Shown here: in pieces, positions 3,101 through 61,250 of the stretch
Layout of the letters: each line of letters opens with the position of its first letter
Numbering within the stretch: the stretch's first letter is position 1
Source of the DNA: Dolomedes plantarius
Lineage: Eukaryota; Arthropoda; Arachnida; Araneae; Dolomedidae
DNA: 64,000 nt
NCBI GenBank assembly: GCA_907164885.2
Contig: OU015503.1
Coordinates: 129,492,877-129,556,876 of the forward strand
Reading direction: 5' to 3'
Notes under the pieces: generated by a model
What the model saw: only the letters and a program-made list of their open reading frames with translations
What the model was told of the DNA's origin: nothing
The model's database searches: none
Made by a program: the position numbers and the translations under genes

Positions 3101-6100
3101 GTATTTTGTATTTCTATTCACTCCAGCATACTTGTTGGCTATACCATGCTGAAGAGCCTATGACATAGTAGTTCTTAGCCCGTAAATGATAACATCTGTC
3201 AGAATCACTCTTAACATTAACATCCGTCCATGAGACTAAGTTGGATTTCGTGGCCCATTACTTATGTAATTTTCCAATTTTTATTTCATTTTAGCTCTGT
3301 ATTTGAGGTATTATTGATTTAGAAAATATATTTACACTTGGTTTGAATTTTAATATAACTTTGTTTAAGCTTTTAAATGCATTTTTCAGCTTTTTTTTTT
3401 TTTTTTTTTAACCATTTCTTGTCTTTAAATTGTTATAAGTCAAGAACCATTACAGATAAATGGTTCAAACTTGGAACATGTCTTTTTCAATTCTTTTACT
3501 TTTAAAAAAAAATTTACTGAATCAGAATTCAATTTTAATTTTGAAAATATTTTTTTTTAAATAAGTTACTTTTTTTAAAAAATTTTTACTCTAAATATTA
3601 TTAATTTTTTTTTAATTAATATTTTAAAAAACACTGAATCAAAATTAAAACTTATACTTCTGTTTAATATATACTGTTTTTTTTAATTCAACAATATTTC
3701 AAGTTATGATTTTAAATTGCCCCACTTTTTTTAAAAAAAACTTAAATTTTTAAAAACTTTATGAGAAGTTTTATGATGCGATTTTGTTTACAAATTATAT
3801 GGTTAACTATCACAAAAAAATTCAAAATTTTAACTCAATAAATAAAAAAAAATTTAAGATTTGTAAGATGTGACCCTAGACGGACCAAATACGTACTTTT
3901 AAAGTAATATCCGTCTCTAGAGCGGAGTGAGTATTCTTGGAATGCTAAATCTAAGGTGATAAAGTAAACAAAATTCAAAGATAAACAAACACAAACAAGG
4001 TCATCGAATAATTGAAGCATAGGTCGAACATGAGGGTTTCAAATCGATAATTACGCACCCTAGCGGGAAAAGTATGAACTCTATCCAACCGAGAGACTGA
4101 TGTTACCATTTACGGGTTAACCTGAGGGGGAGGGGGGAAGGGTGCACCCCCTGGGAGGCATGAGTGATATTTAGGAGCAGGGGGGGGGGGGAAGAAAAAA
4201 TATATAGAACTTATTTTTACAAGACTTGTGAAAACAAAAATTAAATTGAACGATTGGGTATATAACAGTTACCCTATTTCTATTACTCTTGATTTCTTAT
4301 TTTTTGACTGCAATGATATATAATAATGTATAAAGGTTTGCAACATGAGCTTCACATTGGGTTCAAATCCCGACGCTACCATGTTGTCTGCTCATAGGGA
4401 GCAATGGTGGCTCACTTAAATGGCGCTCCCATAATAAAGTGGCCAGCAAGACTTTGTGGTGGTGTTGGGTCAATGTCAAAGAGGTAAGTGCCTGCCGCAT
4501 TGAAAAAAAAAAAAAGAAATGATTGCAACATTATCAGCCTAATCCTAAATTCTACTCTTTCCCATGTAATCACTTTTTACAATAAATTTTTTGCTTTGTT
4601 ACAAGCCAGGAGGAGGGGCATACACATAAAAAAGTTTGAGAGTCACTGCTATAACAAGCCTATGTCATCTGCATATAGGATGGTAAAGAAAGTTCTCAAT
4701 GTGTCAAAAATCTCCCATCAGTGATAAGGCTTGTAATAAGCCTTATGCCTTATCAAGAGGGGGAATGTTGGGTTGCCCCCACTTTTTTTTTTTCCAGTGA
4801 TTTTCATTTATATTTTCTTTCTCTGTTTATTAGTTACTGGCTGAATACCCGTGCTTCGCTACAGAGTACATTCAAAATAAATACAACTGCCAAAGTATGC
4901 AATTAATGCCCCCCCCCCCCAAAAAAAAAAAAATTATATCTATAAAAAAAATCTTAACAGATTGTTACCAACAAAATAGTGTAGAAGAAAATATTCAAAT
5001 TAAATACAATGGTCAATGGTTGCAATTAATTCGTATGTTTAATATCCATAAAACATACTCATTTGAATTAAATTCTGTAAAAACTGCCATCTCAATCAGT
5101 CTAGTGGTTCAGTTTTATCCTTCACCACATTTTAATATTTCTTTTGTCAATTTATTACGTTCTGCACACGACGCAAAATTAATTTAAAGTATTACAAAAA
5201 GAAAAGAAACTCTGATCAGCATTTAATAAATTAAATTCTAAAAATAAATCTTTAAAAATTCGCCAAAAATCAGAAAATGGTGGTAAAGATTTGAAAAAGA
5301 TTTCATTTTAAAGGAATTATTAGGATCTTTCTCACAATATCAATTTTATAACCCTCAGATTATTATTTTAAATACAAACTTTAAAGAATGTTACAAAAAC
5401 AGCTTAAAAATTTTATTCCAAAAAAAAAATCTTAAGAATTTTTTTTCAAAAATCTTTCTTAGTTCACCCCTACACTATAAGAAGAATCGTCATGCCAAAT
5501 TTCAACCCTTTAGGTCCAGGAGTTTGGTCTGTTCGTTATCTGTCAGTCAGTCAGTTATGGAATTATTTTATATATATGATTATATTTATTTAAAGGCATG
5601 CATTTCTGGTTCATAAATGATGCAAATTTTATGAGCCATGATGTGATTGGCTAGCTTCACTGGAAAGCTGGAAGTGTTCATGAGATATTTCAGCAATTCT
5701 AGCAGTTTGGCAGGCAATGTAGCTTGTGGTATGTGAGAGGCAGCATATGAGTCTGTTATATTCTATTTTTTGCAATATTTTCAACAGGGAATGGTAATGT
5801 AACTCACCTTTATCCTCCACGGATTTATTAAGCTCTGAAGAATGCGCATTGATGAGGGACTGTAGGCTAGTCATGATAGCATTATCCCGTTGCTTGGTCA
5901 TTTCGTCCAAAGCATCGTCACTCGTCTCCCCTTCCTCTTTGCTGCTGTCTTCTTTCTCTTTGCTCTCTTTGCCATCGTCGTCTTGCAATTTGGCAAGTTT
6001 GGTGGCCTTGTACTCGTCTAACTTTTCTTTTGTTTTAGCATCCACTTTCACCTAACATGGGGTGGAAAGATTCATTAGGATCAAACAAATGCTGTTCCCA

Positions 6101-12500: not shown

Positions 12501-15500
12501 TAACTGCGAGAGAAGGCAGTCGTGTTTTTTAAGCTCCTGTGGGAGGCTAATAGGGTCCCGGAGCATACTGTTAAATCCCTCTGCACTTAAGTTAAAATTC
12601 ATTTCATTCTGTTGTACTAGTTTAATGTTAATTTGTTTTGTGTCTTTGTTATTAAATCTGTTAAGTTTAAGCTTTGGCCTTATCATTCACAACTAGGACT
12701 TTATTCTTAGACACGATTTTATTAATTTTAAAAAGCATGAGAGAATAGCCTACTACGATGCCACAAGACACACCATAAACAATTTCAAAATGTAAAATTC
12801 GACTAAACTGGATTTGCAGAAGAAATAAAAATATATTCATAAGCACCTACAGCAAAAGAGAAAGTATGCTGAATAGTATAAAAAAATATTCAGAGTGCTA
12901 AGGCTTTCAATATTATCTAAAACAGATAAAACCAAAAAACCTTAACATTTCAAATCAATTTTATTCGTTTAAAAATGTAAAAATATCTTGAGGTCTCGCA
13001 AAAAAATTTATATTTCAATTAAAATATTTATTCACTTTCTTAAAAAATTGAGCTTGCTATCCTATACATCTTGAGGTTATACAAAATAAATAGGTAAAAT
13101 TTCATATTCAATATCTTAAAAAAAAAAAAAAAAAAAAAAAAAGAAGGCTTTATCAAATATATTCTGAGGTTATACTTTACACCAATACTACTACCTATAA
13201 AAAATTCAAATTAATAATGGGTAATATAAAACAGATACAATAGAACCTCGTTACAGCGAACCCCATATATAACGAACTCTCGGATATAGCAAACAAAAAT
13301 TTTGGTCCCACCTTTTACCTATTGCATTTAATGCTAATTTATCCTTTTATAGCAAACCTCCGAAATCTTAAGAATCAGCTACAACGAACCTTTTTTCAGT
13401 CGACTACTGAATTTTTTATTTTTAAACTTTTTAAGAATGTTCAAGAAGATAATGAAAATTTACCTATCGCAATGTGGATAGAAAAGCACAAAATTTCACC
13501 ACTCTCAGATTGTGACATGCAATTGTTCGAAACATGTGATGATGAAGTCATTACATATGAAAATCCGACCGATGAAGATATTGTGGAAGAAATTAAAACG
13601 AATCATTCTGAAACTGAAAATTCTGCATCTGATGCTGATGAAGAGGATCATATAAATGACGAAATCCCCACCATCTCGGATGTTACAGCAGCGATGTGTC
13701 ATTAATAAGTTTTTGTCTACACAAACAGTGGAAGAAAGAGTATTGAAGTCATTTGATGTATTGGACAAAAAAAATTCATAAAATGTTTTTGAAATCAGCA
13801 TCACGTCAGCAGAAGATTACAGATTTTTTCTGTATCAAAACAGTGAGCAACAATTAAAGGTAAAATGAATTTATTTCCATATGTCTTCATTTTTAGTTAA
13901 GGTGACTTGACTGCCTACATTGAAAATGTCATTTGACTATTTTTGTCAATTTTATTTTTTGCAAGAATCATGTAATTCAATCTTTTCTCTCTTCAAAACC
14001 GTTTCGATTTTAATTGTATATCAATTAGAAGCAGAGTTATAGCTATTTTAAAAAACATCGTCTGCTTCAAAAGTGAACCGGAAGTTTTGTTTTGAAACCG
14101 GAAGTTACCGTAAATTGCAGCTTCTAGCTAATTTGTATACGATTTTTTTCCCTAATTGATAATTAATATGTGCCATAATGTTGCTAGTGCACAGCAATTA
14201 CTTTTCTGCAGTTATTTAATTGATTTCTATTTTAAATGTTGGCAACTTTGTCATTCACTCTAGCGTTTGTTTACATCGCGTAGCGTGGGTTTCATTAGAC
14301 TTTTTATTGGTGTTTTTTTGTTAGTAATTCTCTCATTTTACTACCAAATTTTGTTTAAAATTATATCATAACTTGTTGTGATGGGTCATTGTAAAAGTTA
14401 CCGCTCAAAAAAGCGAAAGTTCAGCGGAAATCGCTTTACAAATCCACCTGCAAACTGTGATGTTGAGCACGATCGTGACACAACTTCAGTCGCAAATACA
14501 GCAATGATTACTGCTAGTTCCTCAAAACTGGAAGGTAGTAAACAGATCTTTTCATCTGCTACTTCTACTGAAGATAAATCTGAACTGTTTGGAAACCGTA
14601 TAATCAATATAACAACATTGATGTCAGTGTTTTCAGTATTATGTTGCCCTGAATGCTATAGTAATGAATTGTGTTTATCAGAAGATTCAAGGTTTGGTTT
14701 ACTTTCAAACTTTTGCGTAAAGTGCAAGAATTGCAATTTTTCAAAAGGATTTACATCTACAATAAAAGATAATAACAAGAATCAGATAAACACTACTTGT
14801 TTATGCATTAAGGCTGGTAGGAAAAGGTTATACTGCAGGAAAAACTGTTCTGCATGTTGGATTTACTTTTCTTACCAAAGTATCCTTTAGAAAACATGAA
14901 ATGAAAATAAAGCAGATTGTATGTAAAGCTGCCAAGGAAAGTATGGTGAGTGCTGCAAATGAAATTAAAAATCTTAAAGGTTCAACGGCAAGTATCACAA
15001 GCTGTGGTGTGACGATGGATGGTACCTGGCAGAAATGCAGTTACTCATCCCTCAATGGCTGTGTAAGTTGCATATCAGTTAACACCGGAAAGATATTAGA
15101 TATTGAAATACTGTCACATTTCTGCAGGATATGCAACAAAACTTCAAAATCTGTTTTATCTGATAGTGCACATGTTTGTAAGAATCACCAGGGCTCATCT
15201 TCGAGCATGGTAACCATTGGAGCATATCACATATTTGAACAGTCAGAAAATCTGAGGAAGCTACGCTATACGGATTATTATGGCGATGGCAACTGTAAAG
15301 CTTATGAAGCTGTAAAAAATATATATGGTGCTAATACGGTTACCAAATTAGAGTGCATAGGACATGTGCAAAAGAGAGTTGGTAATCGTCTTAGGAAGTT
15401 GAAAAAGTCTACAAAGGGTCTTGGGGGAAAAGGAAAGATAACTGATAAATTTATTGATAAATTACAAAACTATTATGGCATTGCAATTCGTAGTAATGTT

Positions 15501-18500
15501 GGTAATTTATCAAGCATGCAATCTGCAGTCATCGCAGCATTTTATCATTGCTGTTCTTGCAGTGAACATGCTATGCACGGCCAATGCCCCCCTGGATCTG
15601 ATAGTTGGTGTAAATATCAGCGATCAAAATCGCTAGGTAAAAATACTGATAAAGCCACTGGACTTCCTCAAAATATAATAAATTGTTATGCCAGTGTACA
15701 TGCAGCTATGTGATAAGAAGTTATTGAGAAAGTGTCTACATGGCATGACACAAAATGCCAACGAATGCTTCAATGGTGTGTTATGGAATATAGTTCCGAA
15801 GCAAAACTTTGTAGAACTTCAAACACTGCAATTGGGTGCGTACATAGCTGTTCTTCAGTTTAACAGTGGTTCACAAGGCCTTTTGAGAGTGTTAAAACAT
15901 CTGAACATAAATGCTGGTACATTTTTACTAAATGGCCTAAAGCTTTTTGATTATCAGCGCGTTAAGGACTCAAGAAGACACTCTTTGGCATCTACTAAAA
16001 CTCAGAGAAAAATATTACTAGCTCGCCGTAAGAAAAAAGGCTTGCAGTATGAAGAAAAAGTGGGATTAGCTTATAAGTGTGGTGAATTTTAGCTTGTTTT
16101 ATAAAGAAAAAGTATATTTTTACAGTGACAAAAAACTTTAAATGCTTTTTTCTCAGAATTATGTTTTTTAGCACAAATCTCTACCGTTATCATCTCACAT
16201 AATTATGCATATAATTTGATGAAATTTTCAGGAAATGTTTTAGATGCTATTGTTAATGAAATGGCCTACAATAATTGATGTATAATAAATAGTTTTTTAT
16301 TTGGGGCTGTTTTTATAAGGAAAGGAATGACGAATCGGGAAAATTTTCATATTGGAACATAAAATTGTCTGTATTATTTTTGCATTTTAAAATTTCTCTT
16401 AGATTATAGGCTATTTTGAAGAAAACTGTCATATGTATCATGTGTGAGAAGGAAATTAAGATAGTAATATTATAATTTTGTGCAGAGTGATAAGCATTTT
16501 GGCTAAATTTCATTAAAAATTACTTGAAATTGACCAATTTATAAAAAAGTATGGTATTTACAGGTAAGTTTTTGTTCATTTTTTAATTTTTAAATGCTAT
16601 TTTATCATAAAAGACAAAAAAAGTCTGTAAAAAAGGGTTTTTAAAAAAATTGGCTCCGAACGTAGGCAGTCACTTTAATTTTAATTAATATTGTGTCAGT
16701 TTAATGTAATCGTCTTTAGTCAATTTAATTTATTAATGATTATTTTTAATATTTTATTTTTTTATACATCATTATTGAATACACATAGCAACTGAGTTAT
16801 ACATGTTGTGAATCTCTTAACATTTTTCTTAATGGTTCAGATATAGCGAACAAAACCTTTGGTCCCTTGAAGTTCATTATAACAGGGTTCGATTGTATAT
16901 AGAAAGAGAAAAAGAAAATTCATATGAAAAACTCTCTATTTGTTACAAAAACAACTATCTCTGTAATCCCAAAATTTCCTGTAAAATTATTTTTTCAATT
17001 TTAGAGGTAAGAAGTCAATTTGACTCCTTGGTCTATCAAGAACAGGCTCTGAGAAACAACGTAAGCATCCCTACATTTTCTTTCCCTGTATGAGCCAAAT
17101 TTGTTTCTCTGCCAAGGCATCCATACATATGATACAACTGAACCCCTACAATATGTTTATGATTTGATCAAACGGCCTTTAAGTGGATTAGTTTTTAAAT
17201 GCCTTACAATTCTCCTTACTTCATATTTCTTGTAAGTGCTCTGGGTGTTCATTTTTTTCATGGTCATTTTCTGGTGCTGTGGCATAGGAATAGGTGCTGG
17301 CATTGTCATGGCCACAGGAGCCATCATCTGAAAAAGATAAATATCAATTAATATTAACTAAGATATCTCCTACTCCAGATTCTTTAGAAAAAATAGCAGG
17401 AAGATGAAAAATTATTTATACATATATAAAAAGGGTGGTGAAAGCTTTATTTTTTCATTATTATTTATAACTAGGTAGTACCCGTCAAACTTGACGGTAA
17501 AATACAAATCATTAAAAAAAGTATTATTAAAAATACAATAATAAACAGAAATTAAAAACATTATCATCATAATAGAATGCTTTACAAAAAATCACAGGAA
17601 AGCCACATGTGAGCACATGAAAGCCACGCGTGTTGGCAATTTTGAAATATTCAATTAAACACTCTTAAAAATTTAAGAAAACTTTGTGGTTATGTTAGGT
17701 ATTTGTTTTGAAAAGCACTCTACCGTACAGACAGTTTTGAACATATCACTACGCATGCATCGAGTTTGCAACTTTCCGAAAATACTAAATTTGACATTGT
17801 AATATCTGGTTAAAATAGATATATTATATGGTTAAAATATAAATTTATATATATTAAAAAAAATAATATAATGAAAAACTGTTTTACTGTGAAAAAAATT
17901 ATCCAATTTAATTTTTCTTAAATTAACAACGATGAATGAATCACGGTGAATGAATGAATCACTTATGTTTACATTTTAAAGTAGAGTATATAAAATGAAT
18001 ACTTGTTATTAATTTAATTGAGACACTATGATAATGCGAAAGGTGGCGGAAAAGATATAATTCTCTAATGAATATGAAAATCACAGCAAAAAAATGTTAT
18101 AATGAAAGGATATGAGAACAGTTTTAAACGGTGGCGAACTGTTTTGAAATTGTTATAACCGTTTATTACAGCCGTCTATAAATCGAAAGAAAGTTGATTT
18201 GTGTCGATATTACATTGTTTCTAATAAATTTTTGGGGTTTAGATAGCAAATAATCTTTTTTAACATTACTTTTAACTTGTTAAGCCTAACTCATAAAACA
18301 AAATGGATGCCATAGGCTGATATATTTATGAAGTGGTCGCTCCAGAAGCATTCATGACAGATACATACATACACAGACCACAGCAACTATTAGGAGAATG
18401 AGAAGATAATGAAACTTGATTATATGATCAAAATATGCTTAAGAACTTTTTAAAACAGCAAATATATTGGTCAGTTTACAATTTCACTGCATAAAATATT

Positions 18501-21500
18501 ATGTAGGTCATATGTAGCAGGTAAGCCACATATTTGCTATTTATTGACCCATATTTTCATCCATATATCTTGTAAAAGACTAAAAAGCTATGAACCCTGA
18601 ATATATTAGTAAATACAGAATGTCTAATTTTCAAACAGTACAGGCAAATAATTTCTTCAGAGTTCCATAATTAAGTTTCTTAAATATCATATACAATTTT
18701 TTTTTAATATAGCAGTTACAGCACATATGATTCCTTTACTTTTACAGAATTTTTATTCTTCAGCAAGCATATGCTCTAGAACATTACAAAAAAATTGTGT
18801 GAAAACTGAAAACTCTTCACTTGCAAAATGCCAGCACACTAAATGAACAATGCTGCTTTCCTTATAACCTGGTTTTATTGTATGAACAGATAATATTTAT
18901 ATTTTTTACTCTAGAATTATGTTTCAAATATCATATTAGAGGCTTTATTCTAACAGGGGGGGGGGGGTTAAGCTTGAAAGGGAAAGTGTAAACCTTCACT
19001 GAGTACCTAGTTTAAGATAAATCAGAGACACTGAATTCCATCCATTTAACAAAACATGTCAAAGAAAATTAGGTGAGTGTAATACAATCTATATATATAA
19101 AAAGTTCTGTAACTGACTGACTGACTGACAGATAATGCACAGACAAAACAGCTGGACTAAAGGGTTGACATTTTGCATGGCAATTCTTATAGTGTAGGGG
19201 TATACTAAGAAAGATTTTTGAAAAATTCTTATTTCTTTTAAATTAAATTTTTAAGCTGTTTTTGTAATATCCTTTAAAGTTTGCATTTAAAATAATAATC
19301 TGAGGGTTATAAAATTTATAACACGAGAAAGATCCTAAAAATTCCTTTAAAATGAAATCTTTACCTCCATTTTCTGATTTTTGGTGAATTTTAAAGGTTC
19401 ATTTTTAGAATTTAATTTATTAAATGCTGATCACGTGGTTTCTTTTCTTTTTGTGATACTTTAAATTAACTTTGCATCACGTACATAACAACAAAATAAA
19501 TTGACAATTTTTTTTTCTTGCTAATGTGGCAGACGATTGGACATTATCCAAAAAAATATTAAAATACAGTAAAATAAATGTTCTTCAAACTGTACTATAT
19601 TCTTTAGTAGGTTCTACTAGATTTAACTTGAATATTTTCTTCTACATTATTTTGTCTATAAAAATATCCATAATGATTTTTTTATAAATATATATTTCTT
19701 TTGGCATTAATTGCATACGTTGAGCATTGTATTTATTATAGATATATTTTTTTGTTTTTTGGCATTAATTGCATACATTGACCATTGTATTTAATTTGAA
19801 TGTACTCCGTAGCGAAGCACGGGTATTCAGCTAGCGTATGTGTATATATATATATATATCTTTATATATAAAAGGCAAAGTCTGTGTGTGTGTGACCGAG
19901 TTTTTGTCTGCTCGTGGCACGGCGCAAAGACAGCTTGTCGGACAGTCTTGAGATTCAACACGAAGATGCCCCCTGAGGTCTCATTATGCACCTCGAAGCC
20001 CTTTTTTCGATTTTTTAATTAGATTTTCCGTAATTAAATATTTAGTCGCGATTTGGAGCTCCCGGACGAGTAAAAGCTCCGTAAATCCTAATGTATCCGT
20101 CCAAATTTTTTTTTTTGGACGAGCCTATACAGGAAAGATGACACTATACGGAAATCACAATTAAAATTGTCTGTCTTAATTTATTGATTAATTGTGATTT
20201 TTTTTCGATTGCTTGTACGCACCCGTTTTTCGGAAAAAAAATGCGATTTTGGCCGCGACCCTTTTTTCCAAATTGTCGAATCGATACGTAAATGTCATTA
20301 CATTTTTACGAAATTTTTATCTCAGAGACCCTAGACATCACAGTTTCGAAAGCCAGAACCAAAATTAATTTACAAATTGTAGTTATTTTTTAATAATTTA
20401 TTTTATGATTCGGAAACTCTTGCGAGAAATCTCATTTTGGAGATTTCGTTCTTCAATTCCGGACGAAGGTAAAGCAGGGGAAAATGGGCGTGTCTTTTTC
20501 GACGTCAAGCATGTGATGTGTTGGGGCGTTTGTTTTCTATGAGGGATTGGGTGGTTAAAGGAAATCGATTACTATTGCAGTGATAATCGATTAAAAAATC
20601 GCATTTAGTAATGCCGTAATTGTTTTGGCCAACACTTAGTTAATATCATATAATTTGTGGTGTGTTTGTGGAAAAAATCTATGAAGATTTCAAAGAATTT
20701 CAGCATGTGGACGATGTGACATATTCGCTTTCAAAGAAATCGATTACTATTTCAGTGATATTCGATTAAAAAATAAAATTTCCTAATGCCTTATTTTTTT
20801 TGGAAACAGTTACTTATTCTCATATAACTTGCGCTTTGTTGTTTGAAAAAATGTGTGAAGAATTTAAACAATGACTTCATTTGTTTAGTAGTTTTGATTT
20901 GTTTAATAATTTTATTTTATTGAACAGGAATTTGTACGTTTTAAGTAATCCTATGTCAAAAATTTTGCCAAAATGTGCCAGAAAGGATTAAATTTATATG
21001 GGTAAAATAATGTATCGTGGTGAGGAAAAGGATGACAGCGACGCCCATTAACAAAGAGTTAAGGCTACTAAAATTTGGTAATTACATTACCCGAGCAACG
21101 CCGGGACGGGTACAGCTAGTATATACATAAAACCCAAATTCTTATATTTTGGGGATCTCATTTCTTGTCTGATTAAAAGAAAATTTCCTTATTATTTGCA
21201 ACCACCGGTTTTCAATAAATTCTCATGAGTAAGGTGAAGATACCCAACTGAACAAAGACTTCCTGAAGTACCTGAGATTATGTCGCCCAAAAATTTGAAC
21301 AATCACCAATGAAAGCTTGTGAGAGTTTCAAAAGAAATTTGCACCATTCTACAATGATTTTAAAAAAGCTTGAATTTTAATATTATGAGAATGAATGAAT
21401 AAAAATACCATTCAATGAAATAAAAATAATCCGTAAAAACTCATTTAAAAACAGAAAATATCCAAAAAAAGTACAGACCCTGAACTTTCAACAGAATTTT

Positions 21501-44147: not shown

Positions 44148-45487
44148 CTATTCTTTCCATGATCTTCTTCTGAATATTTTCGTTCTCGTAAACCACCACT
44201 CCAGAACCCGTTTTCTGATCCTTTTTTGATCCATCAGTATATATTCTAATATTTGACTTGGTCCGAGTTGTTTATCCCACTCAAATCTGACCAATTCATT
44301 CACTTTCCTAATATTTCTAGTTCTAGTGCATGTATTATTAATATTGTAATTATATCCATTAATTTCAATTCCCTTTTTGTTATCATAAAGATTAAATAAT
44401 TGTTTAATTGTATTAGCTTTAAGGTTTAATGGCACACACCCTGCCAGCACATTTAATGCATCGGTAGACACCGTTTTATAGCATTTAGTGATGAATAATA
44501 GATAGGGTCTCTGTATTTGCTTTAATTTACTATTGATTTTTCCATAGTCTCTATACCACACTTCTGCAGCATACAGTATGATTTTTTTTCAATTATTGTT
44601 TTATAAATTTCCTTTATTATCTCAGGCTTGGCTCCCCAAGTTTTTTTAGATATTCTATTTAACTTGTAAAATAGTCCCAGAGCTTTCTCGTTAATCTTTC
44701 CTAAGTGTCCCATAAAGTTGAGTTTAATGTCAACGAACGCTCCCAAATATTTAATTTCTTTTTGATAGTTAATAGTGTCATCTCCGATTTTAATGGTTGG
44801 TTTTCTGGCGATTTGACCTCTGCTAGGGACAATGGTGTAGCAACACTTCTCAATATTGATTTTCAATTTATTTTTGGCTATCCAGTCATGACATTGGCCT
44901 AGAGCTTCCGCAGCATAATTAGTAAATCTATATACAACAGGTGAGTTGATCAATATAATTAGGTCATCAGCAAATGCTTGAATCTTGACATTTCCTTTAT
45001 TGTTGAATTCGGTAAGCAAGTCATTAATGAATACAAGTCAGAATGTTGGACCCAGTGAAGAACCCTGCGGTACGCCGATATTATAATTGAACCCCTTTTT
45101 CGTAATTATTTTTCTGTCAGTCAGATAACTTATCAATATACCCATCAAATTTTTTCCAGATTAAGACTTTTTAGTTTGTTGATAAGGATATTTTTTGACA
45201 GTATTAAAGGCGTTCTGTATGTCGAGTGATATAATGCAAGTATGATTCTTGTTTTCTTTATTTTCCTTAATATCTGTTAATATTTTGTAAAAGGCATGAG
45301 AAGTGCTGGTGTCTCTTCTGAACCCATACTGTTTATCAGATAGTTCCATTTTAGTTTCTAATAGAATGATCAGTCTATTTGTTAATATTTTGTCCAATAT
45401 TTTACCCATTACGGGCAATAGACACATGGGCCTGTAAGAGCCAGCCTTCTTTAAATCTTTGTTTGGTTTCGGGAAATAAACGACCAC
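44148..45487 (-). pseudogene. Reverse transcriptase of non-LTR retrotransposon
   Basis: Three consecutive frames. 45,487-45,161: VVYFPKPNKDLKKAGSYRPM, CLLPVMGKILDKIL, DKQYGFRRDTSTSHAF and the motif-A region SLDIQNAFNTV. 45,019-44,522: motif-C AFADDLIILI and KYLGAFVD. 44,561-44,148: thumb region up to RKVNELVRFEWDKQL. These are the ordered RT motifs 1-7 of the family. Frameshifts near 45,150 and 44,560 make it inactive. Confidence 0.88.
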
Positions 45488-46512: not shown

Positions 46513-46529
46513 TGTTGTTTAATTATTTA

Positions 46530-47128
46530 ATTGGGTCCATTGTGGTTCCATTCGGTCAGTCTCTGCGCTCTCTTGCCCAGGCAAGACGAGCAGCCCGATG
46601 GCGAGTATAGAGCAATGGTACTCTCGTAGGTCGACTACTCCCGAAACCCATTCGGTGAAGCGAGCGTTGCACAGTCCGTTTGCTGACTGTACGACTGGCA
46701 CCGTCATTAAACTGGGTGGTAATTTGAGCTAATGTTTGGCTTCGCTGGCTACGTACAATATATCTGAGCCGTCTCTCACCACGCACTGTCAAGGCTAATT
46801 GTCCTTTGCAGTTTGCCCGATCGCTAGTTTTTTTTCACCATCCATGTATTCTTGGTATACTCTTGACACTGTCGACCTTGAAAATCCTAGCTGTCTGACG
46901 ATTTCGGAAATTGAATGGCCCATGCGTCGCGCACCTACGATTTGTCCGCGATCGAAGGCGTCTAAATCAGGCAGTTTACCCATACTGGCAATTCCAACAA
47001 CTAATTCAGAACAACCACAGTACGAGCTATATATGCAGTTACCACAGCGCCCTCACTTGCGCATACATGATGCGCAGCGCTACACAATTTGCATAGGCTT
47101 TGCTACCCCTAATTCAGTGGCACTTCAG
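46530..47128 (-). mobile_element. Truncated Tc1-type transposon with HTH region
   Basis: The 5' end abuts TA at 47,129. The minus strand encodes MGKLPDLDAFDRGQIVGARR with SISEIVRQLGFSRSTVSRVY (first HTH, 46,983-46,795), then a frame with SQTLAQITTQFNDG and SKRTVQRSLHRMGF (second HTH, 46,792-46,556) and LAWARERRD. The catalytic DDE part is absent; the sequence ends where the non-LTR element starts. Confidence 0.8.

Positions 47129-47130
<2 letters not shown>

Positions 47131-47162
<32 letters not shown>
47131..47162. repeat. (TA)n(TG)n microsatellite
   Basis: A compound dinucleotide tract exactly between the Tc1 end and the LTR. Confidence 0.9.
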
Positions 47163-47164
<2 letters not shown>

Positions 47165-47403
47165 AGCACAGAGACACGGACACAGGCTCGATATGAAACG
47201 TTTAATGATATCCAAATCTAGTCTAGGGGCAATATTTACAGAGGGGCAGCATTTACAGTTTGAAAATTAAGGGGGAAAGTTCGCGTCTCTTGCTCAGTCA
47301 TATCCTAACAACCGTTCAGCGGCGTTTCTCCATCGAGTCGTTATCGTCTCCATCGGGCGCTATCGTTGGTTCAAGTCGGCGCATGCGACATCTCCACATC
47401 GCA
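47163..47403 (-). repeat. 3' LTR of the retrotransposon
   Basis: Near-identical to 51,069-51,319 for most of its length; it carries small indels (for example, it lacks the CTCATGGCGGA stretch and the segment around CGGCTAACTCCTCGC). Confidence 0.88.
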
Positions 47404-47879
47404 CTCGGTTCATCCTGGCGGGACAGCAGGTATGTGGACAGAACAGACAGTAACTACAAAAAAAATAATAAAAAGAAAGAGAGAGAAACGAAAGTAGAAG
47501 AAATGTTCTCCGAAAATCCTCTCCACAAACACACCGACAAAGTCGCTTGGACGGTCTCATTTGCATCAGTTGACATGAAAAGAAAATTTTCATCACAGGT
47601 GTAACGACGAGATGGAGTTGGCACCCCATCAAAGCCAGCATCCAAAGCACGTGCAGGTAACATCATATTAGCAGCGTGTCGACGTCACGTTTTCAAACAT
47701 CACAAGTTCATCATCATTTGTTAGCATCACAATTGAAAAAATAAGATGTCGTCCAATCGAACAGTTCAGAGTGTCTTAGAGATTCAGTTCAGAAATGAAT
47801 TTGAAAGGAATGAAGATTGTTCTTGAATAATATATGGATTAAACACAAAAAGTAATGTTCAAATAATATAATGAAGGTA

Positions 47880-48240
47880 CTATGACGACCATTTTTTCAT
47901 GTAATCACTGGCCGTAGACGTTAGGTTTGGTCCATCATGTGACCCGACTTTTTCAACTTGGTATCTGTCATTCGGAAGCACTTTGTAAATTATATCTGGG
48001 TCGCAGTTTTTGTCCAGTGCCAAATTGGCTACAAGATCACCAATGTTATAAATCGATGGCGATTTGCGATGTTTATCAAAGTTTTTCTTGTCACTCACTT
48101 GTAACTTCTCAATGTTTTTCCTAGCTTGAATACGTAGCTCGTTTCTGTCATTAATCATATTATTCACTTAATATTTGTTTAATTTTAAGGTCTTCCTTGT
48201 TTTTCATTTTTATGCCAATTAATCGTTCGAAGGGAGTATA
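47880..48240 (-). pseudogene. Integrase C-terminal tail
   Basis: Starts YTPFERLIGIKMKNKED directly after the myosin-like DDELQLTDATK. It then shifts frame near 48,165 to INDRNELRIQARKNIEKLQV, with YNIGDLVANLALDKN, KVLPNDRYQVEKVGSHDGPN and DYMKKW near the end. These are the TPFE-x-L-x-G, R-x3-Y-x2-GDLV and terminal YMKxW motifs that close Ty3-type pol proteins. The catalytic DDE core is absent. Confidence 0.82.
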
Positions 48241-49498
48241 TTTGGTAGCATCAGTTAACTGTAATTCATCATCAAGTTCTTCAATTTGGTGTTTTTGCTC
48301 TTCCAACTTGCCTTCAAGAATACATTTAGGTTTCTCCAATTCTGAAGTCCTTTGACAATTAACTAATTCATTTAATTCAGCTTGGAAATGTTTCTTAGTC
48401 TTTTCAAGTTCTTCAACCTCTGACTGAAATTTTTTCTTTGATTTATCCAGTTTTACGTGAACAATTTGCATATAATCTAATTAATTTGTGGTGCAGTATA
48501 CCAATATCTTTGGAAATCGCCTTCTTTTGTTCTTCTAACAAAGCAAAAGTATATGCTTCCTCTTCAGCTTTCTTTTTATATTCTGCAATCTGGACATTGG
48601 CAATAGCTAACTTTTTCTCCAAGTATTTTCTTGCTTCTACTGCTTCCTCAACGTGCTCATGTAAACTTTCACGTTCACTTTCAAGCTTGCCTTTAGTCTT
48701 CTCTAGAGCAATTTTAGCTTTTTGCACTGAATCTAACTGTTCCTTTAATTTTTCAGTGGCTACTGTATGTTTCTGCTTTAAATCACGAATCTGATTTTGG
48801 TGTGCAGTAGTTTCGACTTCCAAGTTCCTCTTTAAAATATTGAGTTTTTCCTCCAATTTAGTTCGCAAAGCTTGTTGTGTAGCTGTTGAATCCATAGAAT
48901 CAAGAAGTTTATTCCTCATAGCTTCTAAATCCTCACTTAAGTTTCTTTTCTGCTTTTCAGACATTGCTAAATCTTCTTGTAACTGAATCAATTGAGATTC
49001 CAAAGCTTTTTGTTTCTTTTCAGCTTCTTTGGCTTGAGCATTCAGTTCATCCTTAACTAACCGAGATTCTTCCACTTCTCGCTGAAAATCTTTCAACTGA
49101 CTCTGCAATGTTTCGAGTTGGTGGGTTTGGTCAGTAATCATTGTAGCCTCGCTACATGAATCGTGAAGCCCATGAAGATCAACACTGTTTATCGTTATTG
49201 GATAAGACATATAATTAGTTGGTGTAGGGACATGTAAGGCGTCATTAGGTGGAGTAGTTTCCAAAGAATTTGCAGTTTTAGGACATTCTGAATAGATGTG
49301 TCCGAAATTTTGACAGCCATAAAATCTTTTTCCGCGGTCTCGATTGTGCCATTCAGAACTTTTGTGTCCTTGCATGCCGCAAGAGTAGCATGTAACCATA
49401 GGAGTGTTTCCAAGACAGAAATTGTCTTTTTTAACACTAGTTTTATCATCAAATTTCACAAATGGCTTTTTGTAATTACCAGTTGAACATTTTTTCAT
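48241..49498 (-). CDS. Zinc knuckles, protease stub and myosin II rod-like coiled coil, fused
   Basis: A 351-codon open frame (49,498-48,443), continuing after a shift in 48,471-48,160. Residues 37-72 carry two CCHC-type knuckles, each with a Cys replaced (CYSCGMQGHKSSEW; FYGCQNFGHIYSEC). Residues 101-124 (INSVDLHGLHDSCSEATMI) look like a retropepsin start with the catalytic D-T/S-G changed to DSCS. From about residue 127 the sequence is a long coiled coil with specific non-muscle myosin II rod blocks: KDFQREVEESRLVKDEL, LESQLIQLQEDLA, DSMDSTATQQALRTKLEEKL, NILKRNLEVETTAHQNQIRD, VEARKYLEKKLA, and in the next frame KLEEQKHQIEELDDELQ. The joins to retroviral-type sequence are in frame. Compared with myosin, the first block comes from near the rod C-terminus and precedes blocks that normally lie upstream of it. 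Whether the fusion is expressed is unknown. Confidence 0.8.
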
Positions 49499-50479
49499 AG
49501 ATTTTCAATTTATCTTTTAATGCACTAATGGTTTTACAATCATAAAGAAGGATCTTATTAGGGTAAGTATCTGGAATTTCGCCTATAAAATATTCAATTA
49601 CAGAGCATTCATCAACGTTACCTCTAGCACCGATTTGTCTCAGTTCGACCAAATATTCTGACAGTGTATCATGTGGTTTCAATTTGCGCTGTTGCAAGGC
49701 TTGGTGTATTTGGATGCTATTAATCGTATCGGAGAATTCATCCAAGAGAGTTTGTTTCAACTCATTCCACCACGAGTTAATACCACGAAGAGATCTTATT
49801 AAATTTAACGCGGAACCCAAAGGACATTTTTTCGCAAATATGACTTGATGGACAGGATTCTTAATCTCATACAATGAAAAAAAACTTCTATTTCTAAAAT
49901 GAAACTTTCAATAGGCACGTCGTCCTTTCCAGTAAACGGCCTAATTAATTGCACCAGGTCTTTCAACGAAAAGGGGGAACGAAACGAATCTGCCGGACTA
50001 TGCAATAAATTCTGTTTACTTCCGTTTTGTTCAGGGTGAAAATTCAATCGAGCTGGTGAGTCAGCGTTTTTGGGCGAAAACGATTTTTCACTGACGTGTG
50101 TTTTGTCTTCAGTGGAATCGTCATCTGACTCATATTCCGAAGTGAGTCTTTCCAGCAGTGAAAAGTCACACAATGAATGTAAAATTGTATCGACACATTG
50201 CTTAATATCAGCAGAAAAATTTAAGGACAACAAGTTGCAGACAGACGTTAATTCTTGCAAGTTAAAATCATGAGAGAGTGATTTTTTCTTTTCGTCAATA
50301 TCAAAAGTTGCAAGATCAAAACCAGAAAATTCACGTAAATGCTTACGATTCAATCGACCGTCATCGGATCCAAAAATTAATTGATGTAACAGTTTGACGC
50401 TTTTAGTGGAACCTTTTTTCAATGCGTCGCGAATATGTGGAATTTCTTGCAAGGTTTTCATGATTTTAAGTTTAACCAC
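49476..50479 (-). pseudogene. Retrotransposon gag
   Basis: The first frame (50,479-49,805) begins MVKLKIMKTLQEIPHIRDAL and contains FSLKDLVQLIRPFTGKDDVP with IESFILEIEVFF. A one-base loss in a T8 run (A8 on plus, about 49,876) shifts to the second frame (49,874-49,476): VHQVIFAKKCPLGSALNLI, WWNELKQTLLDEFSD, LSEYLVELRQIGARGN. This is the capsid-like Retrotrans_gag fold region (W-x-ELKQTLLDEF and YLVELRQIG). A further shift at an A6 run (about 49,490) joins the zinc-knuckle frame. Both breaks sit in homopolymers, so sequencing error or programmed shifting cannot be excluded. Confidence 0.82.
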
Positions 50480-50569
50480 ACCAATATTATCATACGAAAA
50501 TTTTCAAAACAATAGAATTTTATAGTTCAATATAACGTCCAGTAGAAATAGTTCTTCAAAATAGCACGA

Positions 50570-50800
50570 AAAAATTCTTTTAAATAGCACAAATATTATA
50601 ATCAGTAGAAACATCAAAATTCCTCAAAGTAACACAAACTTTTAAATCTTCTAAAACAAAAATTCTTCAAAACCTTCAAATTCTTTTAAATAGCATAAAT
50701 ATTATAATGAGCAAAAACATCAAAATTCGTCAAAATAACACAAACTTTTAAATCTTCTAAAACATCAAAATTCTTCAAAACCATCAAAACGAATGTGTTA
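50570..50800 (-). repeat. About 112-bp tandem duplication in the retroelement leader
   Basis: Two adjacent copies share AAATTCTTTTAAATAGCA, AATATTATAAT, AACATCAAAATTC and ACACAAACTTTTAAATCTTC in order. Confidence 0.8.
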
Positions 50801-51048
50801 TTCATTAAAATAGGTGCAAGTATTTGTTAATCAGTCAAAATTAGAGCAAATTCTTTCATCGAGTGCGTTGAAATATACATATACATCAAACCGAAAGTGA
50901 TCTCAGAGCAGTTGGTAAGTACTTTGAAAAATTAATCAACGAAAACGAAAGTACTCACAGAACGGGTCAGGACAATATCATCAGATGTAGAGGCAGTCAA
51001 ACAGCATCAAGACCACACCAGTTTCCCTAGATGTTGAAGTTCGAAATT

Positions 51049-51066
51049 GCATCGGTCGAGCACCCA
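51049..51066 (-). promoter_or_regulatory. Candidate primer-binding site
   Basis: TGGGTGCTCGACCGATGC begins two bases after the 5' LTR in sense. It starts with TGG as required to pair with a tRNA CCA end. The tRNA was not identified. Confidence 0.45.
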
Positions 51067-51068
51067 TG

Positions 51069-51319
51069 TGAGCACAGAGACAGGGACACAGGCTCGATAT
51101 GAAACGTTTAATGATATCTAAATCTAGTCTAGGGGCAATATTTACAGAGGGGCAGCATTTACAGTTTGAAAATTAAGGGGGAAAGTTCCTCATGGCGGAC
51201 GCGTCTCTTGCTCAGTCATATCCTAACATCCGTTCAGCGGCGTTTCTCCATCGCGGCTAACTCCTCGCTTCGCCACAGAGGGCGCTATCGTTCGTTGAAG
51301 TCGGCATCTCCACATCGCA
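51069..51319 (-). repeat. 5' LTR of the retrotransposon
   Basis: In sense it starts TGCGATGTGGAGATG and ends CTCTGTGCTCA. Direct repeat of 47,163-47,403. Confidence 0.88.
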
Positions 51320-52266
51320 TAGAAACATCCTCTCATTACCATGTTTTCATGAACTCGCTTTCTTGTTTGTCCAGTAGAAATCTTGCGATCGATTTTTAAC
51401 TCACTTCCCGACTAGCTAGACATTCGAAACTTTTAGAATAGCTCGGAGCACGATGACAATGCCTTCTTTTGAGACTTTTAGCCATCTGTAAGCAGAATTT
51501 GAATTCATTTTCAGTTCATTTTGTTTTGTAGACTGGTGCAGCCATCTGTCGGCCGGGACGGGAACGAAAACTTAAACGCGAGTTAACTCCCAATTAACTT
51601 TATCTTCTTTCAAGTTGATGGGATAATTCATCAAAAAAAATTTTTTTAAGTATTTATTAATACATAGAATTGTCAAGTTTATAGGATTCAACAGAAAATT
51701 TAAAAACACGGTATATAAAAAGTTCTTTTTATTTTAAATTTAAACTCATTTAGTGTTAGGTCTAGGATTATATAATTTTAGGCTATGAAAAAAAGTTCGC
51801 CGGACATTTTTGAATGGGGGACAATTGCTCTACTGCTCCCCCCCCCTCCCTTGGAGCCGCCGTTGTTTTACGTATTACTTACTTGAAACTTGTGGAATAT
51901 GCAGAACAGTAACATTGTTCCTTGAAGTCCACAGTCAAAAGAAAGAATAGCAAAGCCATTCTTACCTTCCACTGTGGATTTCAAAATGCCGTCTGTTTCC
52001 GTTTTATTGCTATTAATACATTACAAATTACAATATCCCTCTCTCTATCATACCAGAGATTAGGATTTCAATTAAAGCCCATCGTAACAATTCTTGGGCT
52101 TTAATTGAACAAACAATCGAAAACTCGGAAAAGCGGCAACAATTTTTCACTTTAACTAAACTTATATGCAACTGATAATGCGGATAATTTGGCAAGTCAA
52201 ATAACCATGCCAACATTGCTGCCACAACAACCATGCCTGATAAGACCACGAGGACTGCCATTCTAT
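51320..52266. other. Interval between LTR element and Harbinger element
   Basis: No gene is recognised. Contains a C-run near 51,838-51,851 and the hairpin at 52,067-52,109. Confidence 0.5.
52067..52109. repeat. 15-bp perfect inverted repeat, 13-nt loop
   Basis: Arms TTCAATTAAAGCCCA and its exact reverse complement TGGGCTTTAATTGAA. Role unknown; possibly a small transposon end pair. Confidence 0.75.
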
Positions 52267-52498
52267 GCCCGGCCGCACACCGAATGCAACAAAACATTGC
52301 GCAACGTTTCTGTCGCTAGGCGTTGCACAACCAAAATGTTTTATCGTGGAAAATTTCGACTCGCAACGCCAGGTTGATTTGATATTACAACATTAGTAAG
52401 TAAGAACACGGGAGTCGAAGAGGTCTGCAGTATTTTGTTCTCTGTTGAGGGAAGTGTTCAATTTTGGGAAAGTAGTTTGGTCATACTTGTGGGTGATA

Positions 52499-53610: not shown

Positions 53611-53885
53611 ATCTATTTTTTATATGCAAAAATCCTCAACACGGAGCATTAATGAAAATAAAATGGGCCCGCACATGCGCAGATGAAATGTTTCACCAGC
53701 TGTGTCGAGAAGCATACACTTTTGTTGCAGCAACATTTCCGAAATGACGCGACGTGTATCAAAACAATGTTGCATCCGGTGTGCAGCACTCTCCTTTGAT
53801 TACATTGCAGGCGATGCGTCGGACACAGATAGCTAGAAACAGAAACGTTGCGCAATGTTTTGTTGCATTCGGTGTGTGGCCAGGC

Positions 53886-59755: not shown

Positions 59756-61250
59756 CACTAGTTATCAAAAATTAAGGAAAAATCACAAAAAGAGGGATAA
59801 CACGTCCGAAACTAGGCCAATCTGTTTAAAATTTGAATATGTCGTTAAGTAAAAGGTGCTGAACAATACTACATTATGAAAAATAGTGGCGCTGCAGTCG
59901 GAATACGTCATTTGCGAGGAGCATAAAAGTGCATGTCTCAGAGCAAGGCGGCAATTGTATCTGCGAGACTGAGATTAGACGTCTGGCATAGCCAAATTGT
60001 AACAATCACCTCCAGTCATCATTTGACCGAAGAACTGCGATGGCGAGCTATTGGGAGACTAGAGGCAGGTCAAAGTCAGACAGAAGTGGCCAGATGGCTA
60101 AATGTGAGTCTGTCTGTGGTTCATAGACTTTGGCAACAATTTCTAACCACGGATTCGGCATCCAGGATGTTCAGCCAAGGACGGCCATACGCTACGACGA
60201 GTGCCGATGACCGATATTTGTCATTATGCGCACGAAGGAATAGAACCGCAACTCCGTCTGCAGATCCTCCCTCGCTGCAAGCTCCGGAAGGTTGGTATCA
60301 CCGTCAACCGTGCGTAGAAGGCTTCACGAAGGTGGTATTTTTGCGAGACGACCAGCCTTTTGCGTCCCGCTCACGTCACGCCATAGGCGGGAACGCTTGC
60401 AGTGGGCACGTAAATATGTCCACTGGAAGCATGATCAATGGAAGGCTGTTCTCTTTACGGATGAGTCGAGGTTCAGCCTCCAAAGCGATAGTAGGCGTAT
60501 TTTGATTTGGAGAGAACCTGGAACTCGTATTCATCCATCACACATCCGTGAAAGAGATGCACACGGATCAGGTAGTGTCTGTGTTTGGGGTGGTATCTCT
60601 ATGGGTGGACGCACAGACCTCCATGTCTTTCCCCTTGGAAATGTGAATGCTCACACCTATAGAGATGACATCCTTGATGCTTATGTGCGCCCTTGTGCCG
60701 GGGCAATAGGTGATGCTTTCGTGCTACAGGACGATAACGCGAGACCGCACAGGGCTCGCATCGGGGATGCTTATCTTGAGCAGGAATCAATTCAGCGCAT
60801 GGAGTGGCCAGCTCGATCACCGGACCTGAATCCTATCGAGCACGTTTGGGACGCTTTTGGACGACGTATAGCTGCTCTCAATCCTCCTCCTAGGACCCTA
60901 GCCACGCTTTCAACTGCTTTACAAGAGCAATGATTCTCACTTCCTACCGCATAATTCATAGACCGCATAATTGACAGCATCACACATCGCTGTATGTGCT
61001 GTATTGCTTCTCGGGGGGATCATACGCCATATTAAAGGTACTTTTCCTATACCAAACTGACACATCCGATATGTTCATTGTATACATATGCTAGTTTCTA
61101 TAACACCATAGATGTCTGGCGATTTCTTTTTATGCTGTTTTATACCTACCTATGTGTTGTATAATGTGTATATGTTTCATAAAATTCTACGCTTATCTTT
61201 TTGAATAATCGCTATTTTTGTGACTCTTCCTTAATTTTTGATAGCCAATG
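59756..61250 (+). mobile_element. Nearly complete Tc1-type transposon
   Basis: 1,495 bp flanked by TA on both sides. Left end CACTAGTTATCAAAAATTAA, right end TTAATTTTTGATAGCCAATG, an inverted pair. It contains one transposase gene with a single frameshift. Confidence 0.92.
59933..60933 (+). pseudogene. Tc1 transposase, DD34E, one frameshift
   Basis: The N-terminal frame starts MSQSKAAIVSARLRLDVWHS and holds the first HTH (LRWRAIGRLEAGQSQTEVAR, WLNVSLSVVHRLW). Near 60,262 a one-base indel moves into the frame of 60,292-60,933: SPSTVRRRLHEGG (second HTH), WARKYVHWKHDQWKAVLFTD with ESRFSL, VCVWGGISMGG, VLQDDNARPHRAR and SPDLNPIEHVWDAFGRR. The catalytic residues are D in FTDES, D in DDNARPH and E in PIEHVW, with exactly 34 residues between the last two. 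All three are intact. Apart from the frameshift it looks full length. Confidence 0.92.

Follow-up and report, generated by a model that had tools for sequence, protein, structure and literature searches.

Structure and boundaries of the element

The window analysed here is the whole 64,000-nt stretch of Dolomedes plantarius DNA. On its minus strand, from about 51,319 to 47,161, lies an element bounded by an LTR pair, and host coding sequence is present between the two LTRs, as seen from a match to PF01576 together with the LTR alignment. The features that delimit the element are as follows.

51067..51319, minus strand: 5' LTR, 253 nt, starting with TGCGATGTGG and ending with CTCACA; found by BLAST against the 3' copy, the alignment edges being TG / CA
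51049..51066, minus strand: primer binding site-like stretch TGGGTGCTCGACCGATGC, directly after the 5' LTR; assigned by its position and its leading TGG
47161..47403, minus strand: 3' LTR, 243 nt, starting with TGCGATGTGG and ending with CTCACA, then passing into a (CA)n(TA)n tract; found by BLAST

The direct copies at the two ends of the element are a real LTR pair, and TG...CA termini are present. BLAST aligned them with identity in 219 of 262 columns, 28 of which were gap columns; mismatches occupied 15 of the 234 paired columns overall and 2 positions in the last 122 nt. A second alignment, in which the ends were less exact, gave 18 mismatches in 222 paired columns. The difference was concentrated in one strongly diverged block of ~25 nt, plus gaps of 9 and 12 nt, and this block and the gaps may stem from recombination between LTR variants. 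Immediately 3' of the 5' LTR, where a primer site would stand, is TGGGTGCTCGACC, and the stretch at 51049..51066 may resemble the complement of a proline tRNA 3' end; no tRNA gene was found within the window. A target-site duplication was absent, with TTCTA before the element and CACAC after it, the 3' side being a microsatellite. That microsatellite is abutted by a Tc1-like transposon remnant (46519-47135; HTH_23 and weak Tc3-type HTH matches), which was apparently inserted at a TA. The leader before gag contains an 87-nt repeat (50572-50764), 93% alike, in copies 106 nt apart.

No Rfam match reached the gathering score between 46,000 and 52,500, and no second copy of the element of at least 60 nt was found within the window. 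Searches for relatives yielded 47, 4, and 12 pattern stretches in viral contig collections and 225 in a genome contig collection, none of which was confirmed; this was expected, because these collections consist of viral, bacterial, and archaeal sequence.

Gag and the remnants of the polyprotein

Between the LTRs, the following parts of the element were recognized outside the rod.

49808..50479, minus strand: gag, first part; an ORF with no Pfam match, called gag by position only; the frame changes near its 3' end
49479..49874, minus strand: gag, second part, a 132-aa ORF; PF03732 (Retrotrans_gag), E=1e-4; the frame changes again at its 3' end
49247..49441, minus strand: zinc knuckle region of gag; PF00098 (zf-CCHC), E=5.6e-5
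49130..49200, minus strand: protease-like start ITINSVDLHGLHDSC, cut off after ~20 residues; assigned by motif
48163..48240, minus strand: stretch like the end of an integrase core, YTPFERLIG..., in frame with rod piece D; assigned by motif
47883..48167, minus strand: rest of the polyprotein tail, a 95-aa ORF in a further frame

A retroviral-type gag with a zinc knuckle is present. The second part of gag scored 22.9 bits with PF03732, slightly under the cut-off of 24.1, and the zinc knuckle piece alone scored 23.5 bits with PF00098, over the cut-off of 20.8; on the whole 351-aa ORF the latter model fell below its cut-off (E=0.004, 17.6 bits). The preliminary description had placed zinc knuckles, a protease-like start, a long coiled coil, and an integrase tail in one open frame. 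The zinc knuckle does run into the coiled coil, within the 351-aa frame (49,498-48,443, minus strand). The single frame was not upheld, as the 351-aa frame stops within the rod, and the end of the rod and YTPFERLIG sit in a 103-aa frame (48,471-48,160).

The reading of ITINSVDLHGLHDSC as a protease-like start and of YTPFERLIG as integrase-tail-like goes by motif, and neither label was confirmed by the searches, Pfam being empty for both and PDB giving nothing or chance-level matches. The protease-like piece matched nothing in Pfam or PDB, the integrase-like end (48163..48240) matched nothing in Pfam, and the 95-aa tail ORF had no Pfam or NCBIfam match and one chance-level PDB match (E=2.4). 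Across five ORFs, Pfam returned 0 matches to protease, reverse transcriptase, RNase H, or integrase. Going by these motifs, a Ty3-type label is likely; since there are no pol domains in Ty3 order, we file the element as a Ty3-like derivative and not as a Ty3 member. Four frame changes were counted, two in gag, one in the rod near 48,470, and one in the tail. One of the two sites in gag may be a programmed shift. Such a shift would not be expected inside the rod, and for that reason the copy is taken as broken; it looks dead.

Identity of the rod

The rod measures 883 nt (49,123 to 48,241) and lies between the zinc knuckle side and the integrase-tail-like end. The 351-aa ORF matched the Pfam model Myosin_tail_1 (PF01576) with E=5.9e-45. 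As a control, the 214-residue rod stretch was shuffled in a way that preserves heptad phase and keeps the composition of each heptad position; none of nine shuffles matched PF01576, while the real stretch gave 1.8e-44. In NCBIfam, whose models are bacterial and archaeal, the best other long coiled coil was SMC, with 28.5 bits. The PF01576 score and the shuffle control bear out the earlier claim that the match to myosin is specific rather than generic, and a generic coiled coil is rejected by that control and by the PDB and Pfam scores.

The type of myosin was judged from 17 PDB sequences listed as matches to the rod ORF. Among them, five full-length non-muscle/smooth chains scored 91.2 to 105.9 bits, whereas the muscle myosin chains scored 39.8 bits or less. 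The entries 8u95 and 7kog, which we take to be insect muscle myosin, reached 26 and 24.7 bits, respectively. The smooth-muscle fragment 1i84 (1,184 residues) scored only 25.8 bits because most of the matched rod lies beyond its end. The PDB matches listed included no non-muscle chain from an arthropod. According to the passages seen of PMC3912159, muscle and non-muscle myosin II can be separated by sequence only with homologs from near relatives. A muscle myosin donor is disfavoured by the PDB scores; as far as alignment scores go, the closest affinity of the rod is with the non-muscle/smooth clade, and a donor of the "zipper type", as previously proposed, may be regarded as well supported rather than proven.

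Four rod pieces in permuted order

Placed on the Myosin-11 sequence and on the PF01576 profile, the rod resolves into the following pieces, given in element order.

48959..49123, minus strand: rod piece A; Myosin-11 about 1645-1699, natively the last of the four; PF01576 positions 797-857
48689..48958, minus strand: rod piece B; Myosin-11 about 1138-1227, natively the first; PF01576 positions 292-393
48479..48688, minus strand: rod piece C, first part; Myosin-11 about 1340-1409; PF01576 positions 489-560; then a frame break
48418..48453, minus strand: rod piece C, continued in the other frame; Myosin-11 about 1417-1428; a short stretch, placed with the least security
48241..48417, minus strand: rod piece D; Myosin-11 about 1499-1562, lacking 5 residues; PF01576 positions 681-715

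Judged by these placements, the rod is a mosaic in which the element order A-B-C-D stands against a native order of B-C-D-A. The single myosin II rod segment originally proposed was therefore wrong in detail, there being four pieces with the native order broken. A contiguous single segment is rejected by the profile placing, the scores of piece A, and the jumping alignment. PF01576 matched 9 of 10 overlapping rod pieces, the exception (48,319-48,471) being the one over the frame break and the C-D join, and its places in element order were 797-857, 292-393, 489-560, and 681-715. The corresponding Myosin-11 places from PDB were 1643-1705 for A, 1336-1404 for C, and 1497-1581 and 1529-1559 for D; the start of B at 1138 is our own reading inside a matched Myosin-11 stretch, 1079-1271.

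One result speaks against the permutation: the best single stretch reported by HMMER, the same 1079-1271, took A and B collinearly with a 7-residue gap. This collinear reading is disfavoured, because piece A alone scored far higher at its 3' rod place than just upstream of B, with 51.8 versus 1.4 bits in Myosin-10 and 46.4 versus 6.1 bits in Myosin-11. A jumping alignment of the 351-aa ORF, for which a provisional zipper stretch served as the reference, reached 481 with a backward jump and 362 without it, and 20 heptad shuffles gave 114-182. Identities to this zipper stretch were 29/58 for A, 45/90 for B, and 33/72 for C in the 351-aa ORF, and 10/12 for C and 31/59 for D in the 103-aa ORF. Piece D was identical to Myosin-11 at 10 of 19 and 19 of 31 residues in its two parts. 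When a 31-residue query over the A-B join was searched, no myosin was among the matches listed, an outcome that two half-matches meeting at this point could explain.

Of its 12 residues, the second part of C shared 6 with Myosin-11 1417-1428 and 1 with the stretch that would be collinear with D. It received no phmmer score of its own, since the D-side match began only at residue 17. In the Pfam alignment, residues 10-78 of the 103-aa ORF, most of this part of C among them, were assigned together to D (643-716). Because the part consists of 12 residues and Pfam joins it with D, the C-D join is the one whose place and offset are least secure.

Reading frame and heptad register at the joins

All five joins were in frame, those from protease to A, from A to B, and from B to C in one frame and those from C to D and from D to the tail in the other. 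If joins were random, this would occur in 1 of 243 cases, a figure to be read with the first three joins partly selected, because the preliminary description had picked out a long ORF.

Repeats of 7 and 28 residues make up the myosin rod. The residue offset changed by 112 (4x28) at the B-C join and by 70 (10x7) at the C-D join, values on which Myosin-11 and the provisional zipper stretch agree. At the A-B join the change was 562, which is no multiple of 7, and the hydropathy phase was equal on both sides; register at this join is thus read from hydropathy alone, and the difference would need two single-residue register shifts in the donor along the way from one place to the other. Further on, in the second half of B, the phase was ambiguous between two neighbours. 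The three rod-to-rod joins therefore appear to be in heptad register, which would be produced either by similarity-guided transfer between rod repeats or by selection for a continuous coil. Self-similarity of the rod DNA was 0.318 at a lag of 84 nt and 0.322 at 168 nt, versus 0.313 over all in-frame lags. With values hardly above the in-frame background, the data do not support a nucleotide repeat signal guiding the jumps.

Divergence and constraint

The divergence of the rod was compared over 183 positions with human Myosin-11 and the provisional zipper sequence. These two sequences agreed at 96 of the 183 positions, and the element keeps 66 of those 96. Identity of the rod was 87/183 to Myosin-11 and 91/183 to zipper, against 96/183 between these two, so that by this measure the rod seems hardly outside ordinary divergence and the excess is modest. 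There was no stop codon in 284 rod codons. In random-mutation runs at assumed divergences, 20-25 percent unconstrained residue change gave 4 to 6 expected stops and a probability of none of 0.004-0.017, whereas at 5-10 percent change the probability of no stop was 0.09-0.33, which is unremarkable. The open rod and the milder divergence of the LTRs hint that the chimera is older than the present insertion and was once translated, a hint that depends on an assumed ordinary donor and on the provisional zipper sequence.

Origin of the chimera

The previous suggestion that an LTR element captured a non-muscle myosin II rod and lost most of pol is well supported. We consider it probable that an LTR retrotransposon, non-autonomous and by now dead, transduced parts of a host mRNA for the non-muscle myosin II heavy chain through template switching in reverse transcription, a reading based on one element copy. 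That the donor was a processed mRNA is likely, though unproven: between the rod pieces there was no intron-like or poly(A) stretch, inside them no non-coding stretch was seen, and, as regards intron loss, each piece (165 to 271 nt) could fit in one exon.

For this to happen, myosin mRNA would have been packaged together with the element RNA. During minus-strand synthesis, the reverse transcriptase would have departed from the element RNA close to where the integrase region ends, continued on the myosin rod message at the end of D, made two forward skips within that message (D to C and C to B), switched to stretch A, further 3' on the same or a second myosin RNA, and finally returned to the element RNA just inside the protease. 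Because the rod consists of 7- and 28-residue repeats, transfers by local similarity would tend to preserve both frame and register. The resulting chimera could have been mobilised by enzymes supplied in trans, since its LTRs, putative primer site, gag, and both ends were kept, and a Gag-rod fusion protein may perhaps once have been made. Passages of PMC5408686 describe the packaging of cellular mRNA in LTR particles and switching guided by microsimilarity, with several switches possible in theory. Against template switching, five transfers within a single cycle are many.

A two-stage history is compatible with template switching, and we regard it as a possibility to be held tentatively. A longer rod piece would have been captured at first, and internal deletions between repeats together with one rearrangement would have followed while the chimera replicated. 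The B-C and C-D joins fit this as simple forward losses of whole heptads, and the retention of 66 of 96 conserved positions, set against LTR differences of 2/122 at the end and 15/234 overall, suggests that the chimera may predate the insertion. A backward step is still needed to bring A before B, and no intermediate copy is known; furthermore, the excess divergence of the rod is modest (87/183 and 91/183 versus 96/183), and the LTRs are strongly different in one block.

We also considered whether the element stems from a non-autonomous LTR lineage that replicated through many rounds with a Gag-myosin-rod fusion in frame, selection maintaining an open rod in register. Candidate roles for such a fusion would be, for example, Gag multimerising, myosin filament poisoning, or particle carriage along actomyosin. 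The five in-frame joins, three rod joins apparently in register, 0 stops in 284 codons, changes at 30 of 96 conserved positions, and a divergence of the LTRs that seems lower than that of the rod all fit this idea. It is nonetheless rather unlikely, its odds being lowered because the distance of the rod from human and fly hardly exceeds that between the human and fly sequences.

A circular myosin RNA as the donor would require fewer events, since a back-splice would link A at its end with B at its start, exon skipping would remove the stretches separating B, C, and D, and two template switches would suffice. A-B-C-D is indeed a rotation of the native B-C-D-A, and the passages available of PMC5408686 mention retrocopies in mouse that derive from circRNA and are flanked by LTR sequence. 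Joins at exon boundaries need not hold the heptad register, which the three rod joins nevertheless appear to do, and we judge this origin unlikely.

The donor might instead have been a divergent host myosin paralogue whose rod was already unusual. Arachnid genome duplication left duplicates of genes, and a donor of this kind, for example such a duplicate, would explain 30 of 96 conserved positions changed with 0 stops in 284 rod codons. We know of no precedent for a permuted rod in a working myosin, which makes a paralogous donor quite improbable.

It is very improbable that a LINE-made processed myosin pseudogene or DNA recombination placed the rod in an already integrated element: a single copy was seen and there is no target duplication around the element, but there is also no poly(A) or duplication around the rod, pol is absent between the two sides, and five joins are in frame. 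An assembly chimera, which the microsatellite at the 3' LTR end might invite, is extremely improbable given that there is no N in 47,001-51,500, that GC is 0.27-0.38 over nine measured stretches, and that random misassembly would not give in-frame, apparently in-register joins.

Comparison with known elements

The captured rod is like the non-muscle (zipper-type) myosin II rod in sequence and heptad pattern; unlike it, it has no motor, its pieces are out of order, D lacks 5 residues, and there is one frame break. In transducing retroviruses, host coding sequence replaces viral genes in frame with gag. The element likewise has host coding sequence in place of element genes and in frame with gag, but contains no recognisable pol or envelope and is not a virus on present evidence. 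Maize Bs1 carries fragments of three different genes, whereas here one gene is permuted, in an animal. The likeness to Bs1 is that of an LTR element with copies of host gene fragments, as given in passages of PMC5408686.

The preliminary description knew of no described arthropod element of this kind. In general terms that statement fails, since LTR-mediated retrocopies are reported for mosquito, Drosophila, and the moth Plutella in the parts seen of PMC5408686, PMC8277862, and PMC9674220. The first two of these, citing Tan et al. 2016, list LTR-mediated retrocopies in mosquito, Drosophila, zebrafish, and chicken, and a passage of PMC8277862 cites the Drosophila family CG17604_r as amplified by its own LTR retrotransposon. 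As far as these citing papers allow a comparison, the retrocopies of Tan et al. 2016 resemble our element in having host mRNA sequence in an LTR element, ascribed to template switching; they differ in that here permuted pieces of one message, in frame with gag, occupy the place of almost the whole of pol. The moth case, Pxyfem of Plutella xylostella, is attributed in passages of PMC9674220 to switching of an mRNA template in LTR particles. It is similarly an arthropod case with partial host cDNA beside gag-like LTR sequence, with ATTT shared at the switch point; unlike our element, Pxyfem yields silencing RNA, occurs in tandem clusters, and has no gag fusion, and the passages of PMC9674220 describe no intact flanking LTR pair. 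Template switching between LTR elements is reported for wheat relatives in a passage of PMC1950507. By contrast, the text available of PMC11675541 ties lepidopteran retrocopies mainly to non-LTR elements. Among the matches listed from the open-licence literature, there was no myosin or spider case of an LTR-mediated retrocopy. Retroelement capture of host genes is thus already known, arthropods included, and what we take to be new is a permuted, phased mosaic of one structural gene replacing pol.

The element may be valued as a readable record of several reverse-transcription jumps, in which the phased rod repeats let each landing be placed. It can be used to test whether template switching follows sequence similarity, reading frame, or repeat register. 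If siblings exist, it would be the equivalent, in an animal, of a transducing retroelement whose cargo is structural and neither enzymatic nor regulatory.

Other elements in the window

Several further mobile elements lie in the window. A reverse transcriptase fragment of a separate retroelement is found at 44525-45019 (RVT_1, E=1.4e-8). Inverted arms of 53 nt (52267-52319 and 53833-53885), 92% complementary and 1,513 nt apart, stand ~950 nt beyond the 5' LTR and possibly mark a DNA transposon. A Tc1/mariner-type transposase is located at 60292-60930 (DDE_3, E=1.1e-14), and a Mutator-like transposase at 14901-15710 (PF20700, E=2.7e-45). The Mutator-like gene is enclosed by three pairs of inverted arms (4837-5555 and 19116-19834), which are 60 to 134 nt long, 78 to 91% complementary, and ~14 kb apart.
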